From contig NZ_JALHLP010000002.1 of NCBI RefSeq assembly GCF_022844465.1, positions 186,001 to 250,000 on the forward strand: DNA of 64,000 bases, read 5' to 3'. Under the pieces are notes generated by a model. That model did no database searches. It worked only from the letters and a program-made list of their open reading frames with translations, and was not told the origin of the DNA. Shown in pieces: positions 28,189-36,814 of this stretch. Source of the stretch: Bradyrhizobium sp. GTDB taxonomy: Bacteria > Pseudomonadota > Alphaproteobacteria > Rhizobiales > Xanthobacteraceae. The position numbers and the translations under genes are program-made. The stretch's first letter is position 1; each line of letters begins with the position of its first letter.

Positions 28189-29709
28189 TCAGCGGGCGGG
28201 CGGTGGGACGTTGGCGGCATACCAGCGGCGAAGCGCGCCCAGCGCCGGATGCGCCAGCGAGCGGTTCAGATAGGTCCAGATTCGAGGCTGGTGACGCAAA
28301 TATTGGCGCTTTCCGTCGCGCTGGCTCAGCCGGGCAAAGGTTCCGAGCAGGCGGGTGTTCCGCTGCGCCGACATGATGGCGTAGATCTCGGCAAAGCCGG
28401 CAGCATCGAAGTCGGCCTCGGCGGTGCGCCGGGCCCTGATATAGCGGGTCAGCAGCGTCAGTTCGAGCTGTTCCGGGATGTCGATGCGCGCATCCTGCAG
28501 CAACGAAACCAGATCGTAGGCCGCGGGGCCCAGCACCGCATCCTGAAAGTCGATCAGGCCGACGCGCAACACCCCGGGGCGATCACCCAGCCAGAGAATG
28601 TTGGGCGAGTGAAAATCCCGCATCACCCAGGTACGCGGCGCGGCCGCAGGCTTTGCCAGCAATTTGCGCCACATTGCGATGAATTCCGCGCGCTGTTCCC
28701 GGCTTGCCGCGGCGCCGCGCTGCGGCAGATACCATTCGAGCATGAGTCCGATCTCGACCAGCCAGGCCTCGATATCGAAAACCGGGATGTCGTAGGTGAG
28801 ACGGGGCGCCAGCGGCACCGTCGCCGGCATGGCCTGGCGGTGCAGCGCCGTAAGCATGTCGATCGCTGCTTCATAGCGCTCGGCGATCGGCCGCGGCGGA
28901 TCACCTTCGACGATACCGTCGCTGCCGAAATCCTCGGTGATCAGGAAGCCGGTATCGAGGTCGGCGTGGCGGATCTCGGGTGCGGAAAAGCCGTGCGCGC
29001 GCAGTCCATCGGCGATGGCGACGAACGGTTTGACGTCCTCGGCGAGATGAACCGCAGCGCTGTAGGATTTCCCGTCGTAGATCGCCGGGCCGTCCGGGCG
29101 GCGCGGCGCGTTCATCAGGATCGAGGTGCCTTCGTCGCGAGCGAGCCGCGCATAGGAGCGCGTCGAAGCGTCGCCCGGCATGCGCTCACGCTGCGCGTCC
29201 AAAAAGCCCGCGCTCTCCAGGAAACCACGCAATGCAGCGAGCCGCGCGACCTGCGCCGCAGCCTTGCCGTAGCCGGTGATGTCAGCGGTGCGGGCGGTGG
29301 ATCCGCTCTCCGGAAGATGGCTGAACGCGACGTTGATGTGGTCTGCGGGCAGCGCATCCGGCGCGCGTTCCGGCCATTCGATCAGCGCCAGCGTGGCCTC
29401 GGGCAGCGGCGACAGCCCGATTTCCTCCAGTTCGCTCGAATCGTTGATGCGGTAGAGATCGGCATGAACGACCGGAAGCGGCAGCTCGTAGCTCTGCGCC
29501 AGGGTGAACGTCGGGCTTGGCACCTCCAGCGCCGGATCGTTGGCGAGATAGCGGATCATGGCCCGAGCAGCGGCGGTCTTGCCGGCGCCGAGATCGCCCG
29601 AAAGCGTGATGGTGTCGCCCGGACCGACCAGCAGCGCAAGGTCGGCCATCAAATGCGCCGTGGCCGTCTCGTCCGCCAGCGTCGCCGAGAATGTCGCGGG
29701 CGGGGTCAT
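28189..29709 (-). CDS. TsaE-AmgK fusion: tRNA t6A ATPase joined to MurNAc/GlcNAc kinase
   Basis: A 506-residue two-domain protein. Residues about 1-150 are TsaE, the ATPase of the t6A37 tRNA modification complex: Walker A LSGDLGAGKTAAARAMIRYL, VPSPTFTLAQSYE, HADLYRI and LALIEWPER. Residues about 160-506 are an aminoglycoside-phosphotransferase-like kinase: GDASTRSYARL, the catalytic loop WVMRDFHSPNILW and the metal-binding LIDFQDAVLGPAAYDL. This matches AmgK, the anomeric MurNAc kinase. Its ATG overlaps the divL stop by 4 nt. In other bacteria the two are separate adjacent genes. Kinase substrate is inferred from similarity and from murU nearby. Confidence 0.9.
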   Translation of the reverse strand: MTPPATFSATLADETATAHLMADLALLVGPGDTITLSGDLGAGKTAAARAMIRYLANDPALEVPSPTFTLAQSYELPLPVVHADLYRINDSSELEEIGLSPLPEATLALIEWPERAPDALPADHINVAFSHLPESGSTARTADITGYGKAAAQVARLAALRGFLESAGFLDAQRERMPGDASTRSYARLARDEGTSILMNAPRRPDGPAIYDGKSYSAAVHLAEDVKPFVAIADGLRAHGFSAPEIRHADLDTGFLITEDFGSDGIVEGDPPRPIAERYEAAIDMLTALHRQAMPATVPLAPRLTYDIPVFDIEAWLVEIGLMLEWYLPQRGAAASREQRAEFIAMWRKLLAKPAAAPRTWVMRDFHSPNILWLGDRPGVLRVGLIDFQDAVLGPAAYDLVSLLQDARIDIPEQLELTLLTRYIRARRTAEADFDAAGFAEIYAIMSAQRNTRLLGTFARLSQRDGKRQYLRHQPRIWTYLNRSLAHPALGALRRWYAANVPPPAR

Positions 29710-32225
29710 TCGGCGGCGTTGCGATGCGCGTTCTGGTCGATCGGAAACTCGCAGGTGACCGTCGTGCCAATGCCGACCGTCGAATCGACCCGCACCTTGC
29801 CGCCATGCAGTTCGACAAAGGAGCGCACCAGTGACAGGCCGAGGCCGGCGCCGCGGTGCCGCGAGCCGTTGGAGTGGCTTTCAAACCAGTCGAACACCTT
29901 GTCCTTGACGTCGGGGGGGATGCCGGGACCGGAATCGGTAACGGAGAACAGGACGCGGTGATCGATCCGCCGGGCGCGGATCGTGACCGTGGCGTCGTGC
30001 GGCGAGAAGCCGACGGCGTTGGCGAGCAGGTTGAACAGCACCTGCACCACGCGCCGCTCGTCGCCGATGAAGTTTCCGGCGTCGGGGTCGATCTCAACCT
30101 TGAGTTCGATGCGGTCGGTCGCCAACCGGTCCTGGATGCCTTCGGCGGCGGCCTGGATGGCTTTCCCGATATCGACGGGTCCGATCTCGAGTTTCATGGC
30201 GCCGGCGTCGATGGTGGCGAGATCGAGGATGTTGTTGGTGAGCGCCAGCAATGCATTGGTCGATTTGGTGACGTAGTCGAGATATTCCGCCTGTTTTGGC
30301 GTCAGCGGCCCGGTCGAGGGATCGCTGAGGAAATGCGCGAAGCCGATGATCGTGGTGAGGGGCGCGCGCAATTCGTAGGACACGTGGTGGACGAAATCGA
30401 CCTTCATCTGATCGGCGGCTTCCAGCGCCTCGTTTCGTTCGCGGAGCGCCCGCTCGACATTCTCGGTGTCCGTGATGTCCTGGAATGTCAGCATGGTCGC
30501 GCCGTCGGGCAGCGGCATGGTCATGCAGTCAAGCACGCTGCCGTCCTTGCGATCGAGCTTGAGCGATTCCTGCGCGCGGTTATCGATGGCGGTGATCGCC
30601 TCACGCAGCGCGCGCCAGGCGCGTTCGTCATCGAACAGCGGCTTGCACCATGCCTCCACGGTTTCGATGTGCGGCTGCTCCTTCAGCGAGTCAGCCGACA
30701 GCCTCCACATCTTCGCAAAGGCCGGGTTGAACAACTCTACCCGGCCGTTGCTGCCGAACACCGCCACCGCCTCGGCGAGATTGTCGAGCGTCTCGTGCTG
30801 GACGCGCGTCAGCCGGTCGAACCTTCGCGCCAGATCGAGGCTTTCGGTGACGTTGTCGAACAGATAGGTGACGCCGCCTTCGAGGTTCGGCGTGGTGACC
30901 ACGCTGAGCGCCCGGCCGTCCGGCAGGAACCAGGTGTAACTTTCCGGTTCGATGGCGCGATAGGCTTCGTGCAGCTTGGCTTTCCAGACCCGGAAGTCCG
31001 GCTGCTCCGGAAGCTTGCGCGCCGCGCGAAGGCGGTCGAGGACGCTGGAATCGTCGGGATGGGAGTCGAGGAAGGCCTGATCGAGGCTCCACAGCCGCCG
31101 GTAGGATTCATTGTAGAAGGCGAGCCGCCGCTGAGCGTCGAACACGGCCACGCCCGACGACAGCTGGTCAAGGGTACGGCGATGGGCTTCCGCCATCCGG
31201 TCCATGGCGTCGCGCAACGCGGTTGCCTCGCTGGCGTCGATGGCGATGCCGGCGCTGCCGGCGGCCAGCTTCAGCGCCTGCACATCGTAGATCCGCCGTT
31301 CGCCGCCGACCACGATCGGCAGCCGGGCGCTGAAGCTGGAATTGTCGTTCAGCGCCCGGCTCATCTCGGCACGCTGGTCGTTCTCCAGCAGTTCGAGGTT
31401 GCGCTCGACGGTATCGGTGATGCTTGCGCCTTCGGTGGCCTGAACATAGGCGGCATTGGCGTAGCGCAGCTGACCGTCCGCGCTTCTGGCCCACATCGGC
31501 CAGGGCGTGGCAGCGGCGAAGTCGCGCAGCAGTTCGGTTTCTTCCTGCAGCGTCCTGTAGCGGAGGTTTGATTCGGCGAGGTCGCGGCGAAGTCCGCCGA
31601 GTTCTCGAATCCTGACAACGGCCTGGCCGCCGATGGCGCGACCCATCGCTTCGAATGCGCGGCCGTTCGCGGTAAAGAGATTGAGCAGGAAGCCTTCGCC
31701 GGCCTCACGCAGGGCGACGACGGCATGGTCCATCTGCCGCGCCGGTTCCGGCGGCAGCCAGGTTCCAAAGGCGAGGATGCGTTGCGGCGAGTTCGCCGAG
31801 GTGTCCTGGGAGATCAGCAGCGTGGTGTCGCCGCTGATCTGGGGCCGGCTATCGCCGGCAGCCCAGGCGATCAGGATCTGGGGTTCGGCGAACAGGAGCG
31901 CGCGAAGCCGGTCGGCCTGAACTTGCAATTCGGCGATGTCGGAGCGGAGCCGTAGTTCGTTTCGGGTGGCCCGAATGCGGGTACGCATCAGTAGGATCGC
32001 GGCGAGGACGGTGAAGCCGAGCAGCGCGAGCGCCGTCGTCAGGGCCGCGAATTCCTGATGATAGAGCTCAAGCCAGTCCGAAATTGCCTGCGTGAAGGCC
32101 ATGTCGCTGGCAAGCGCCGGCTCCGGCGCGGTGAACAGCGCGGCGGCAAGCACAATCAGACCGTGGCGCGCCAGTGAGGTGCGCGACAGCAGGGTTCCAC
32201 GCATCGCCGCGACCACGCCCGACAT
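29706..32225 (-). CDS. divL: DivL-type atypical sensor kinase with tyrosine in place of histidine
   Basis: An 839-residue membrane-anchored regulator of cell polarity and CtrA phosphorelay. A signal-like segment and a helix at about residues 60-80 (TALALLGFTVLAAILLM) precede a coiled region and PAS-like domains (about 230-330, 350-460, 480-590). In the H-box the phospho-accepting His is Tyr617, in VSYELRAPLTTIIGFAHFL, the hallmark of DivL. The ATPase domain has NLLANAVGFSP, DSGPGIPPD and GAGLGLSLVRS. The start ATG at 32225 is uncertain; AAGGA is very close to it. Coupling to tsaE matches the divL-tsaE neighbourhood I recall from Caulobacter. Confidence 0.88.
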   Translation of the reverse strand: MSGVVAAMRGTLLSRTSLARHGLIVLAAALFTAPEPALASDMAFTQAISDWLELYHQEFAALTTALALLGFTVLAAILLMRTRIRATRNELRLRSDIAELQVQADRLRALLFAEPQILIAWAAGDSRPQISGDTTLLISQDTSANSPQRILAFGTWLPPEPARQMDHAVVALREAGEGFLLNLFTANGRAFEAMGRAIGGQAVVRIRELGGLRRDLAESNLRYRTLQEETELLRDFAAATPWPMWARSADGQLRYANAAYVQATEGASITDTVERNLELLENDQRAEMSRALNDNSSFSARLPIVVGGERRIYDVQALKLAAGSAGIAIDASEATALRDAMDRMAEAHRRTLDQLSSGVAVFDAQRRLAFYNESYRRLWSLDQAFLDSHPDDSSVLDRLRAARKLPEQPDFRVWKAKLHEAYRAIEPESYTWFLPDGRALSVVTTPNLEGGVTYLFDNVTESLDLARRFDRLTRVQHETLDNLAEAVAVFGSNGRVELFNPAFAKMWRLSADSLKEQPHIETVEAWCKPLFDDERAWRALREAITAIDNRAQESLKLDRKDGSVLDCMTMPLPDGATMLTFQDITDTENVERALRERNEALEAADQMKVDFVHHVSYELRAPLTTIIGFAHFLSDPSTGPLTPKQAEYLDYVTKSTNALLALTNNILDLATIDAGAMKLEIGPVDIGKAIQAAAEGIQDRLATDRIELKVEIDPDAGNFIGDERRVVQVLFNLLANAVGFSPHDATVTIRARRIDHRVLFSVTDSGPGIPPDVKDKVFDWFESHSNGSRHRGAGLGLSLVRSFVELHGGKVRVDSTVGIGTTVTCEFPIDQNAHRNAAE

Positions 32226-32546
32226 TCCTTGCCCCAAAACGCACGACTTAAGCCTGGCGCTGCCCCCCGCGCGCAATCCGCCAAGTATGAGCGGTCTGGC
32301 GATGGGATCAAACGCTGGCTCAGGTTTGGAGCGTGCCCGGACGCCAAACCGGTCCCCACTTTCGCGGGTCGCGCTCCGTACGAATCGGTTGAGAGTATCC
32401 CCTTGGGGAGTCGGGCGGTAAGAGTCCAGACCGTGAACGTGAAAGCCGGTTGTGAAAAAATGCTGCATTGAACAATCGCGGCGAATCTCGCCAAGCCGGG
32501 CCGCATCCCGACCTGCCGGGTCGATCCTTACCGGTCGGGGATTCGA
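32226..32546 (-). other. 321-bp gap between dut and divL
   Basis: No convincing gene is visible. The region should contain the divL promoter. It holds a short palindrome TCCCCTTGGGGA and, just downstream of the dut stop, GC-rich stems (CCCGACCTGCCGGGTCG and ACCGGTCGGGG) that might form the 3' end of the dut message. A lone TTAA occurs near 32243, but I found no full TTAA-N7-TTAA CtrA site. Confidence 0.5.
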
Positions 32547-33005
32547 TCAGCGGCCGGTCGATCCGAAGCCGCCGCTGCCGCGCCCGGTGGCCGAAAGCGT
32601 CCCCACCTCAACCAGTTGCGCCCGCACCACCGCCGCGATCACGAGCTGCGCGATGCGTTCACCGCGCCGAACGGCAAAGGCCTCATTGCCGTGGTTGATC
32701 AGCAGCACGCTGATCTCGCCGCGATAATCCGCATCCACCGTGCCGGGCGAATTCAGCACGGTGACGCCGTGTTTGGCGGCGAGGCCGGAGCGGGGCCGCA
32801 CCTGGGCCTCGTAGCCGGAGGGCAGCGCGATCGAAAGCCCGGTCGGTACGGCAGCGTATCTGCCGGGCGCTAGAATCAAGGGCGTGTCTGCGGGCACCGC
32901 GGCCAGCAGATCGAGGCCGGCTGCGTCTGCGCTCTGGTAGGCCGGCAAAGCGAGACCCTCGCCGTGCGGCAGTTGGCGGATATCGACCTTTATGGTCGCG
33001 TTCAC
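32547..33005 (-). CDS. dut: Deoxyuridine 5'-triphosphate nucleotidohydrolase (dUTPase)
   Basis: A 152-residue trimeric enzyme that hydrolyses dUTP to dUMP, limiting uracil in DNA. The five motifs are visible: [49 protein letters not shown] and the C-terminal [12 protein letters not shown] arm. The start is a GTG at 33005, with GGAGGAG 5-6 nt upstream, giving [18 protein letters not shown]. It overlaps the coaBC stop (GTGA, 4 nt), so it is coupled to it, like the common coaBC-dut pair. Confidence 0.95.
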
Positions 33006-34426
33006 GAAGACTCCTCCAGCGCTTTGGCGATCGCCGCTACCAGTTTGTCCGCGACCTGTTCCTTGGTCATGACCGGCCATGAATCGACGTCGATATCCTT
33101 GCCCTTGCGCGTCAGCAGGTGGACGGTGTTGCGATCACCGCCCATCACGCCTGTCGCCGGCGAGACGTCATTGGCGAGGATCCAGTCGCAGCCCTTGCGC
33201 GCGATCTTGGCCTTGGCATTGTCTATGAGATGCTCGGTCTCGGCGGCAAAGCCGATCACCAGCGGCGGCCGCTCGTCCTTCAGCCTCGAGATGGTCGCGA
33301 GAATATCCGGGTTCTCCACCAGTGCGAGCTGCGGCATGCCGGCCGTGGTCTTCTTCAGCTTCTGCGCGCCTTCGCTGGCGACGCGCCAGTCGGCGACGGC
33401 GGCAGCGAAGATGGCGATGTCCGCCGGCAGCGCGGCTTCGACCTGATCGAGCATGTCGCGCGCCGATTCCACCCGGATTACCGTCACCCCGGCGGGATCG
33501 CGCAAGCCCACCGGGCCGGAGACCAGCGTGACATCCGCGCCTGCCGCCTGCGCGGCCGCGGCGATGGCAAATCCCTGCTTGCCCGACGAGCGATTGGCGA
33601 TGTAGCGCACGGGATCGATCGGCTCATGGGTCGGCCCCGCCGTGATCAAGACGTGCTTGCCGGCGAGCGGCCTCGGTTTGGGCGGCCGCAGCATGTCGAT
33701 GGCGGCGGCGGCAATCTCGGTGGGTTCTGACATCCGCCCGACGCCGGCTTCGCCGGCTTCGGCCATTTCGCCGGCATTGGGTCCGGTCATGGCGACGCCG
33801 TCGCGACGCAGCTGCAGCACGTTGCGGCGGGTGGCCGCGTTGTTCCACATCAGCGGGTTCATGGCGGGCGCCAGCAGGATCGGCCGGTTCGTCGCCAGCA
33901 GGATCGCGCTGGCGAGATCGTCGGCATGGCCCTGCGCCATCTTCGCCATCAGGTCTGCGGTTGCGGGCGCCACCACGATCAGGTCGCATTCGCGGGCGAG
34001 CCGGATATGCCCGGCGTCGAACTCGCTGCCGGCGTCGAACAGGTCGGTATGGACGCGCTGGTGCGACAGCGCGCTGGCGGCGAGCGGCGTGACGAATTGC
34101 TGCGCGGCCCTGGTCAGCACGCAGCGGACGTCGATGTGCCGCTCCTTCAGGCGCCGGATCAGGTCGAGCGCCTTGTAGGCGGCAATGCCGCCGCCGATGA
34201 TCAAGGTGACGCGGGCCTCACCATGGACGGCCTGCGGCGCGGTGGGCCGTTCAGATTGAGCCGGGGCGGCGGTCGGCGCCGGGGCGGCCGTCGCCGGCCG
34301 ACCCTCGCAATAATCGCGCAGGATGACCCGCACCTCCTCCTCGACCGAACGGCCATTGCTGGCGGAGCGAAGCCGCAGATGCGACTTGATGGCGTCGTCG
34401 AGCTTTCGGATGGTCAGGCTGGCCAC
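33002..34426 (-). CDS. coaBC: CoaBC with an N-terminal ribbon-helix-helix (FitA/VapB-like) domain
   Basis: A 474-residue fusion. Residues 1-40 (from [13 protein letters not shown] through [14 protein letters not shown]) match the FitA/VapB antitoxin-type ribbon-helix-helix DNA-binding fold. An Ala/Pro linker (about 41-70) follows. Residues about 72-245 are CoaC, the flavin decarboxylase: [31 protein letters not shown], and [14 protein letters not shown], which lacks the cysteine seen in E. coli Dfp. Residues about 255-474 are CoaB, the CTP-dependent cysteine ligase: [42 protein letters not shown]. The start is a GTG at 34426 with GGAG 7 nt upstream. An inverted repeat sits at its promoter. 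Confidence 0.9.
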
Positions 34427-34450
34427 GGGCAATCTCCGAAGTCATGAAAT

Positions 34451-34478
34451 CAATGATATCACATGTATGCTATCAATG
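34451..34478. promoter_or_regulatory. AT-rich inverted repeat upstream of coaBC, candidate operator
   Basis: The sequence CAATGATA-N12-TATCAATG has arms that match as inverted copies at 7 of 8 positions (5 of 5 in the inner TGATA/TATCA). It lies 25-52 bp before the coaBC GTG and just after the ubiB stop, in a markedly AT-rich spot of a GC-rich region. FitA-type antitoxins bind TGATAGCA-like half-sites with 12-nt spacing, which is close. Since CoaBC carries an RHH domain, self-binding is plausible but untested. Confidence 0.5.
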
Positions 34479-34481
34479 CAA

Positions 34482-36056
34482 TCATAACTGTCGAACGGCA
34501 ACCAGAATTCCGAGGAAGGTGATCGCAATGATCCAGAGCGCCACCGTCCGCCAGCGGCTCTTGCGGCCCTCGGCACGGCCCAGCGCCGCAATCGTCTCCG
34601 GCGACAAGGTCAGGCCTTCCCGGGTCATCTTCTCCATGTTCTCGAGCACCGCAACCGCGCGCGACGCGATCGACGGCAGGCTCGCCATCACCCGGCCGAG
34701 TTCGCCCGCCCCCGACACCGCGCCCTCGATCCGTCCCACCGGGCCGAGATTGCGCTCGATCCATTCGCGCACCACGGGGTCGGCGATCTTCCAGATATCG
34801 AGCTTCGGGTCGAAACCGCGCGCCACGCCTTCCACAACCACCATGGTCTTCTGCAGCAGGATCAATTCGGGCCGGGTCTGCATGTCGAACAGTCCGGTGA
34901 CCTCGAGCAGCAGGGTCAGCAGCTTCGCCATCGAGATTTCTTCGGCGGTGCGGTTGTGGATCGGCTCGCCGATGGCGCGGATCGCTTGCGCGAAATTGTC
35001 GACCGAGTGATGACCGGGCACGTAGCCGGCCTCGAAATGCACCTCGGCGACACGGCGGTAGTCGCGGGTGATGAAGCCGAGCAGGATTTCGGCCAGGAAG
35101 CGCCGCTCCTTCGGCCCGAGGCGGCCCATGATGCCGAAATCGACGGCGACCAGCCGGCCGGCATCGTCGAGGAACAGGTTTCCCGGATGCATGTCGGCAT
35201 GGAAGAAACCGTCGCGCAGCGCGTGGCGCAGGAAGCTCTGGATCACCTTGCGGCCGAGGTCGGGCAGGTCGACGTTCGAGGCTTCGAGGCGGGCATGGTC
35301 GTTCAGCGCGATGCCGTCGATCCATTCCATCGTCAGCACGTTATGGGTGGTGCGGTCCCAGTCGACGGCCGGCACGCGAAAATCCGGGTCGTCCCGTGTG
35401 TTCTCCGCCATCTCCGACAGCGCGGCCGCTTCCAGCCGCAGGTCCATCTCCATCGCCACCGACCGCGACATCGTGTTGATGACCTCGATCAGCCGCAGCC
35501 GCCGCGCTTCGGCCGAATGCGCCTCCGCATTGTGGGCGACAAAAAAGAAATCGGCGAGGTCGCGGCGGAAACGCGCGGCGACATTGGGCCGCAGCACTTT
35601 CACCGCGACCGATTTGCGGATGCCATCGCGCTCGGTCTCGCCGCGATGCACCTGCGCGATCGAAGCTGCGGCGACCGGCGGGCCAAAGCTGACAAACGAC
35701 TGCGCCACAGGGCGTTCCAGCGACAGCGCGATCACGGCCTCGGCCTCGGCCTGCGAGAACGGCGGCAGCCGGTCCTGCAGGCTCTCGAGGTCGCGCGCCA
35801 TCGCCACGCCAACGACGTCGGGCCGGGTCGCCAGAAACTGTCCGAGCTTGAGGTAGGCAGGGCCAAGCCGCGTCAGCGCGCGCGACAGCCGCGGCCCGGA
35901 TTTGACGCCGGGGCGCTCAATCAGCCGCGCCAGCCGCAGCGCTAACTGGGCGGGCGGCGGCACCAGACTTGGATCGACGACGCCGAACACGCCCTCGCGC
36001 GCGAACACGAAGGCGGCACGCACCAGCCGCGCGATGTGGGTCGCCGCAGAGATCAC
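34482..36056 (-). CDS. ubiB: UbiB-family atypical kinase/ATPase for ubiquinone synthesis
   Basis: A 524-residue membrane-associated ADCK/ABC1 protein needed for ubiquinone production. The KxGQ motif is [18 protein letters not shown], the Ala-rich loop [14 protein letters not shown], the ExD motif [11 protein letters not shown], and catalytic elements [15 protein letters not shown] and [12 protein letters not shown] single C-terminal helix [20 protein letters not shown] anchors it. The start is a GTG at 36056 that overlaps the ubiE stop (GTGA), giving the expected [14 protein letters not shown]-terminus. It follows ubiE directly. Confidence 0.94.
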
Positions 36057-36814
36057 AAACGCCAGCCCGAATGCAGCGCCACCACGCCGCCGGAGAGGCT
36101 CTCCCATTTCACCCGGGAAAACCCGGCGGCGCGGATCATCTCGGCAAACTCATTGGGCCTGGGAAACTTCCGGATCGATTCGACGAGGTACTGATAGGAT
36201 TGCGCATCCCCGGTCACGGCGCGGCCGAGCGGCGGAATCACGTTGAACGAGAAAAAATCGTACAACCGGTCGAGCCCGGGAATGTCGACGGTGGAGAATT
36301 CGAGGCAGAGGAACCGGCCGCCGGGCCGGAGCACGCGGTAGGCCTCGCGTAGCGCGGCGTCGATCCGCGGCACGTTGCGGATGCCGAATGCAATGGTGCA
36401 GGCGTCGAAGCTGCGATCGGGAAAAGCCAGCGCCTCGGCATTGCCCTCGACGAACGAAACCTGCCGGTCGAGATGTCGCGCCAAGGCCCGGTTGCGGCCG
36501 ACCTCGAGCATGTCGGCGTTGATGTCGCAGACGGTGGCGTGGAAGCCGGCTCCGGCCGCCTCGGCCGCGCGGAAGGCGATATCGCCGGTGCCGCCGGCGA
36601 GGTCGAGCAGCGCAAACGGCGCATCCCCCTTCGGCGGGTTGAGCGCATTGATCATGATGCCCTTCCAGACCCGGTGCAGTCCCGCCGACATCAGATCGTT
36701 CATCAGGTCGTAGCGCGCCGCCACGCTGTGAAACACCTCGTTCACCAGCGTCTGCTTGTCCCCCAGGGGCACATCCCGGAAGCCAAAATGGGTGGTTTGA
36801 TCCGGCCGATCCAT
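36053..36814 (-). CDS. ubiE: Ubiquinone/menaquinone C-methyltransferase UbiE
   Basis: A 253-residue SAM-dependent methyltransferase of quinone synthesis. Residues [20 protein letters not shown] and [17 protein letters not shown] are the UbiE signature 1 region; the SAM-binding motif is [35 protein letters not shown] is signature 2. The start ATG at 36814 (MDRPDQTTH) fits known lengths; the open frame upstream is not supported. It is the head of the ubiE-ubiB-coaBC-dut run and is divergent from mutM across 80 bp. Confidence 0.95.

Follow-up and report, generated by a model that had tools for sequence, protein, structure and literature searches.

The closest described parallel to the gene reported here is PutA, a metabolic flavoenzyme whose trifunctional type C forms carry an N-terminal ribbon-helix-helix (RHH) domain of approximately 45–50 residues that represses the enzyme's own genes (PMC5293562). 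According to the same source, grafting the RHH domain of E. coli PutA onto another PutA transferred DNA binding, and the catalytic properties were retained. In the VapBC-type toxin–antitoxin system FitAB, antitoxin dimers bind DNA via their RHH domain, and the toxin, without contacting DNA itself, promotes this binding in that it stabilizes the complex (PMC3920265). The bifunctional enzyme CoaBC (Dfp) of coenzyme A synthesis is described as essential in B. subtilis (PMC11487621), and in M. smegmatis and M. tuberculosis it forms dodecamers with CoaC at the core; mycobacterial CoaB is reported to be inhibited by CoA thioesters, with acetyl-CoA competing with CTP and phosphopantothenate (PMC7794376). 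No description of a CoaBC–RHH fusion was found in our literature search, from which subscription journals were mostly out of reach, and a term search of the main text of a comparative toxin–antitoxin survey (PMC2701414) gave no pantothen-, Dfp or COG0452. The RHH-bearing enzyme that represses its own genes is already known as a kind from PutA; the CoaBC version, whose toxin–antitoxin origin is unusually visible, would be a further case.

The window analyzed here comprises 64,000 nucleotides of a Bradyrhizobium sp. contig (NZ_JALHLP010000002.1, positions 186,001 to 250,000). Its minus strand has the gene order ubiE, ubiB, coaBC, dut, the first of which is assigned as ubiE from its sequence, and coaBC is fused to an RHH head. 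The features of this region are:

34482..36107, minus strand: ubiB (ABC1 kinase), upstream neighbor, separated from the fusion gene by a 55-bp gap
34494-34467, minus strand: promoter TCGACA-16-TAGCAT proposed by a promoter scanner, overlapping operator copy 1
34467..34484, minus strand: putative operator copy 1, TGATTGCATTGATAGCAT, the first TGA of which is the ubiB stop codon
34453..34481, minus strand: possible promoter TTGCAT-17-TATCAT, read by eye and covered by the putative operator
34444..34461, minus strand: putative operator copy 2, TGATATCATTGATTTCAT, 23 bp from copy 1
34434..34437, minus strand: GGAG, likely ribosome-binding site, 7 nt before the GTG
33002..34426, minus strand: RHH-CoaBC fusion gene, 474 aa, GTG start, defined by its open frame and Pfam/NCBIfam profiles
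34307..34426, minus strand: FitA-like ribbon-helix-helix head, approximately residues 1–40 (PF22513, models, Foldseek)
34220..34300, minus strand: Ala/Pro-rich linker, approximately residues 43–69, unconserved, predicted to be disordered, without in-frame start codon
33692..34213, minus strand: CoaC domain, Flavoprotein PF02441, residues 72–245 (Pfam)
33029..33667, minus strand: CoaB domain, DFP PF04127, residues 254–438; TIGR00521 extends to residue 466
32547..33011, minus strand: dut (dUTPase), downstream, overlapping the end of coaBC

The frame starts with the GTG at 34426, and an in-frame TTG is also present at 34432. Just past dut, a sensor-kinase-like protein of 920 residues (named by eye) is encoded at 29706-32468 on the minus strand. 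The genome of the window contains a single coaBC match, and the CoaBC part of the fusion is therefore presumably active. An assembly accident is excluded, the same fusion being present in dozens of further genomes.

The original prediction had taken the first ~40 residues for a FitA-type RHH domain joined in frame to a full CoaBC, and had called for a profile search, a structure prediction and a survey of relatives. Searched alone, the N-terminus matched the Pfam FitA-like_RHH profile (PF22513) with 61.2 bits, above the curated cut-off of 27, and had no match in NCBIfam; within the whole protein, residues 2–38 matched the same profile (55.0 bits, E 8e-15). Among PDB sequences, the one closest to the head comes from N. 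gonorrhoeae FitA (2bsq/2h1o, E 0.002). Structures were predicted with AF2 as single chains. As the full-length model (pLDDT 73.5) was built on a shallow alignment of close relatives, the head was modeled alone, which gave a pLDDT of 88.8 with an extended N-terminus followed by helices at residues 11–24 and 28–40. This corresponds to the strand-helix-helix fold with a basic strand residue, in a single-chain model of a domain whose strand pairs only in the dimer. In Foldseek the FitA chains of 2bsq ranked first (TM-score 0.82 by query length), with E-values of only ~0.1 because the domain is so short (45 residues). VIA-align retrieved RHH proteins, namely CopG (Z 6.6), the PutA RHH (6.3) and Arc (6.2), ahead of FitA (5.3). 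The remainder of the protein is a full CoaBC: residues 72–466 match TIGR00521 coaBC_dfp with 392 bits (cut-off 219.7), and the bifunctional CoaBC of M. smegmatis (6TGV), which likewise has complete CoaC and CoaB domains but lacks an RHH head, matches residues 70–465 (E 1e-74). Also as predicted, head and enzyme lie in one open frame (33002..34426, minus strand) that begins with GTG and is preceded by the likely ribosome-binding site, and they are joined by an Ala/Pro linker (pLDDT below 50 at residues 46–68 of the full-length model).

From codon 39 to CoaC, the linker in the window contains no in-frame ATG, GTG or TTG, and thus internal initiation at CoaC is unlikely there. As a general argument this was dropped, since one or more such codons occur in the linker in 56 of the 85 fused rows used for the trees; a second, head-less CoaBC form may accordingly exist in other species.

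The head is under purifying selection. Its dN/dS is 0.18 vs. 0.11 for the CoaC segment (87 fused sequences, mostly from Bradyrhizobium; Nei–Gojobori, pooled over pairs and assumed to be gap-free), and R7, A22, S27, E29, and R33 are invariant in all 164 fused loci examined, a count that excludes L120 and L204 (loci, genomes, and families are cited by our own L, G, and f numbers). Such constancy of Arg7 and other head residues beside a freely varying linker argues against the head being a frozen remnant, retained for translation start or oligomerization and devoid of a role in DNA binding. We regard this reading as unlikely, although RHH domains do dimerize, the RHH of PutA being reported to mediate dimerization (PMC5293562), and a head once fused could be carried along passively.

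CoaBC matches were obtained in 147 of the 149 genomes searched from the window's GTDB family, and the survey of CoaBC N-termini revealed 83 fused loci in 27 of the 47 sampled genera; partial matches at contig ends in G004, G048, G055, and G147 were left out of the classification. An order-wide search (150 genomes, 145 from other families) gave two fused genes among the matches listed, in G251 and G281, genomes that belong to a single genus of family f24. In a class-wide search (142 genomes, 108 with a match), no CoaBC among the matches listed except the window's own extends into the head. Save for the two f24 genomes, the CoaBC of other families is thus head-less among the matches listed in both searches. 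The best 80 of 195 named relatives, a selection that favors close kin, all match from residue 1, and most are titled Bradyrhizobium. Automatic classification yielded 168 fused loci (among them the window's own locus in two copies), 78 without a head, six with fitA-fitB, and two with an 'RHH not in frame'. Before tree construction, L113 and L219 were reassigned by hand to 'toxin deleted' and L252 to 'toxin-antitoxin', and L120 was dropped as a frameshift splits its gene; this left a tree set with 85 fused rows, of which another family contributed two. For unfused genes, a script took as start the in-frame start codon lying closest ahead of CoaC. The named relatives overlap with the loci from the family search: at least three pairs (L003/L040, L006/L109, L007/L110) have contigs of equal length and probably represent the same record, so that the 166 fused loci counted below do not equal 166 independent genomes. 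The split in L120 (G020:C41) is an apparent frameshift near residue 250 in a fragmentary assembly. At G337:C10:39973-40092, the head gave a weak match (E 8.8e-6) within an open frame of 397 codons that does not encode CoaBC; this long frame either arose by chance or encodes a different protein headed by an RHH.

As one possible origin of the head, capture of an antitoxin had been proposed, and relatives that carry fitA-fitB at the same place, with and without the toxin, point to such an event. A fitA gene and a PIN-domain gene precede an unfused coaBC in L111, L139, L224, L226, L228, and L252, where this toxin–antitoxin operon lies between ubiB and coaBC (Pfam was run on L111, L139, L228, and L252); a PIN gene adjoins coaBC only in such unfused relatives. 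L111 (G079) encodes a FitA of 93 residues (PF22513, 70.5 bits) and a PIN protein of 145 residues (45.2 bits); the stop codon of the PIN gene and the start of coaBC share the sequence ATGA. The arrangement in L139 (G182), from another family, is identical to that in L111, with a PIN match of 61.8 bits and the overlap GTGA. L228, its congeners L224 and L226, and L252 of family f24 have FitA-like and PIN genes; in L252 (positions 805-1271), tandem FitA-like genes (69 and 84 aa) stand before the PIN gene and coaBC. Two other sampled members of the L252 genus are fused. In L113 and L219 the antitoxin is kept and the toxin is a scar. The PIN gene of L113 (G009) is reduced to its first and last dozen or so codons, and in L219 (G049) VIVLD and IDPW-like ends remain in different frames; these scars were read by eye, local alignment giving scattered matches past the first L113 block.

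The PF22513 profile matched 94 times in 61 genomes of the family, and 33 of the matches are fused heads by hand count. One further match, in G055, is possibly a fused head cut by the contig end. Three of the remaining 60 lie just upstream of coaBC (G009, G044, and G049; in G044 with a toxin gene between fitA and coaBC), where approximately 0.01 would be expected by chance (a rough estimate at one in some 4500 per gene). Free FitA-like genes are few in this family, and in 18 of the 33 fused genomes (61 searched; hand count) the head is the only FitA-like match, as it is in the window's genome. Other toxin–antitoxin-like genes also occur between ubiB and coaBC: L123 has a HicA match (29.6 bits; cut-off 27) next to a HicB-like partner that stays under its own cut-off, L220 a gene of DUF4258, a family with a toxin role, and L214 a weak addiction-module antidote match below cut-off. 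Because fitA occurs near coaBC beyond expectation and is joined there by these genes, the ubiB–coaBC junction looks, over few loci, like a place where toxin–antitoxin modules collect or persist. Inserts of other kinds are present at this junction as well, such as the GNAT acetyltransferase-like gene that precedes coaBC in the unfused loci L118, L125, L223, L229, and L234 (Pfam was run on L125 only).

The head of the fusion might conceivably still act as an antitoxin against a PIN toxin encoded elsewhere, thereby tying survival to the presence of CoaBC. It belongs to the FitA family, and the window's genome contains seven PIN-domain matches. However, none of the seven lies on the contig of the fusion, and the C-terminal part that FitA has when free, as in L111, L113, and L219, has given way in the fusions to the unconserved linker, which leaves no toxin-binding segment after approximately residue 42. 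We therefore consider a still-active antitoxin highly improbable. The fusion has no adjoining toxin gene of the kind seen in type II toxin–antitoxin systems, its neighbors being ubiB and dut.

In the CoaBC tree, a single clade of fused genes was rejected (AU p 2e-28 with both families), and the two fused families are well apart. For family f1 alone the AU p was 0.013, and for narrower sets 0.008 and 0.005. The fused state requires 9–10 changes on the CoaBC trees, which have poor backbone support; by their starred branches, the minimum is four in the two 171-row trees and only two in a 70-row mixture-model tree. The fused genes thus do not form one clean clade, and repeated fusion, or one gain with several losses inside f1, may account for the pattern. 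L219, with its free fitA and toxin scar, is nested inside a clade of fused congeners, and L252, with the module, is sister to the fused L250, a placement which fits repeated exchange between free and fused states. The fitAB-coaBC loci may be precursors of the fusion or, as the nesting of L219 suggests, parallel cases rather than ancestors.

Both 18-bp copies of the putative operator sit at the gap between ubiB and the fusion. The promoter scanner found one promoter (shuffle mean 0.0), and this candidate and the one read by eye both overlap the repeats; as in PutA, conserved sites would therefore lie on the predicted promoter of the enzyme's own gene. In L200, L204, and L205, a TATAAT read by eye follows 16–17 bp after a TTGATT inside the putative operator, and the TTGCAT-17-TATCAT of the window agrees with this layout. 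Allowing up to one mismatch, the pattern TGATWNCATTGATWNCAT occurs at only two places in the whole 5.0-Mb genome, both upstream of coaBC; as it was derived from these two sites, only its absence elsewhere is informative. In the window, 0.01 tandem sites would be expected.

Of 166 fused loci, 153 have a half-site of the form TGATWGC/GCWATCA no more than 100 bp from the start, vs. one of 78 unfused loci, a contrast somewhat inflated by the greater A+T content of the fused upstream regions (48 vs. 35%; dinucleotide-shuffled half-site rates of 8% in fused and 2% in unfused regions). Two or more half-sites are present in 115 of the 166 fused loci. With a slightly wider pattern and 120 bp, 66 of the 85 fused tree-set rows have at least two sites, nine have one and ten have none, vs. 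no unfused row with two sites and two with one (78 rows), the operator patterns having been derived from loci that are also counted. At least one member with two or more sites occurs in 21 of the 28 fused genera, and seven genera have no such member. The ten fused rows without a recognizable half-site are what a head frozen as a remnant would allow, but the difference between fused and unfused loci tells against it. Since fused loci share ancestry, the starred branches provide only approximately three informative independent comparisons; all of these favor an association between operator and head and none opposes it, but with so few a sign test cannot reach significance. At head residue 3, loci with N3 lack an exact half-site in 5 of 12 cases vs. 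5 of 153 with S3, and the single T3 locus also has none; most of the N3 loci concerned are close kin, and this co-variation is therefore only suggestive. Six of the eight rows with a module or scar have no exact half-site or one, so that the fusions have a clearer operator than their supposed precursors.

In several other genera the typical form is the palindrome TGATTGCNNTGCAATCA, which occurs at 72 places in 47 of the 149 family genomes. Thirty-nine of these, in 39 genomes, lie 16–212 bp upstream of a matched RHH-bearing coaBC unit, comprising 37 fusions (including the frameshift-split G020 and G147, which is cut by a contig end) and two free fitA genes (G049 and G079). The remaining 33 places fall in eight genomes, seven unfused and the fused G065, whose copy is 4.3 kb away; the other 32 are in unfused genomes. 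Variants, mostly with the center GA, recur several times in unfused G116, G022, G094, and G145, where they look like dispersed repeats unrelated to coaBC. Palindrome copies in unfused genomes such as G116 and G094 could suggest that the upstream repeats serve another regulator or are a relic of the old fitAB promoter, the head acting elsewhere. However, the copies in unfused genomes are not upstream of coaBC, and among the 40 genomes with a fusion or free fitA and an exact palindrome, 39 have it at coaBC and no further copy. A dead relic, moreover, would hardly keep at least two half-sites in three quarters of the fused genera. We thus hold this alternative to be very unlikely.

Autoregulation, which the original prediction had suggested, gains strong comparative support from the tandem half-sites of most fused loci, nearly absent from unfused ones, and from the lack of further tandem sites in the window's genome. 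The fusion shares with PutA the RHH domain at the N-terminus of a metabolic enzyme, but the enzyme is another one, belonging to CoA synthesis, the RHH is of FitA type by profile, in the window's genome the putative operator is found at no gene but its own, and relatives carry a toxin–antitoxin operon at the same place. With FitA, its closest PDB sequence and first Foldseek match (2bsq), it shares the RHH family and a putative self-operator of tandem or inverted half-sites; it differs in lacking a toxin gene and a FitA-like C-terminus, and in being fused to an enzyme.

We consider it probable that RHH-CoaBC is a three-function autorepressor which arose from a captured fitAB antitoxin at the coaBC promoter; operator binding, repression, tethering, and the order of events are inferred from comparison. 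The protein would combine the two activities of CoA synthesis with an N-terminal FitA-type RHH that dimerizes and recognizes tandem TGATNNCA half-sites located on the coaBC(-dut) promoter; RHH-CoaBC in excess would thus repress, and probably switches down, its own gene. As to its origin, a fitA-fitB operon would have settled between ubiB and coaBC and become the promoter-proximal part of the coaBC transcript, whereby FitA would have repressed coaBC too. The toxin would then have been lost, the C-terminal toxin-binding part of FitA would have become dispensable, and the RHH would finally have been fused to CoaBC. Given the dodecamers with a CoaC core formed by mycobacterial CoaBC, the fused head might be displayed in many copies by the CoaBC oligomer, which may replace the toxin as the tether of antitoxin dimers on the operator. 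An effect of metabolites on DNA binding is conceivable as well, since CoA thioesters inhibit mycobacterial CoaB. Only tentatively, and with more doubt than conviction, would we extend this to the proposal that coaBC in this order, as an essential metabolic gene, has been wired repeatedly to toxin–antitoxin modules, and that in several lineages the antitoxin was domesticated into the enzyme itself. The product would be an autorepressor that senses CoA or acyl-CoA, with the CoaBC oligomer in place of the toxin as tether on DNA and with repression gated by enzyme occupancy.

Little is known about the control of CoaBC, and in the case described here the repressor seems to be part of the enzyme itself. 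Possible steps toward this state are found among the related loci, from a whole module upstream of coaBC via deletion of the toxin with retention of the antitoxin to fusion of the antitoxin head. These loci thereby outline a possible route by which a toxin–antitoxin module may become the regulator of a housekeeping gene, and make the fate of chromosomal toxin–antitoxin modules directly testable in soil bacteria.
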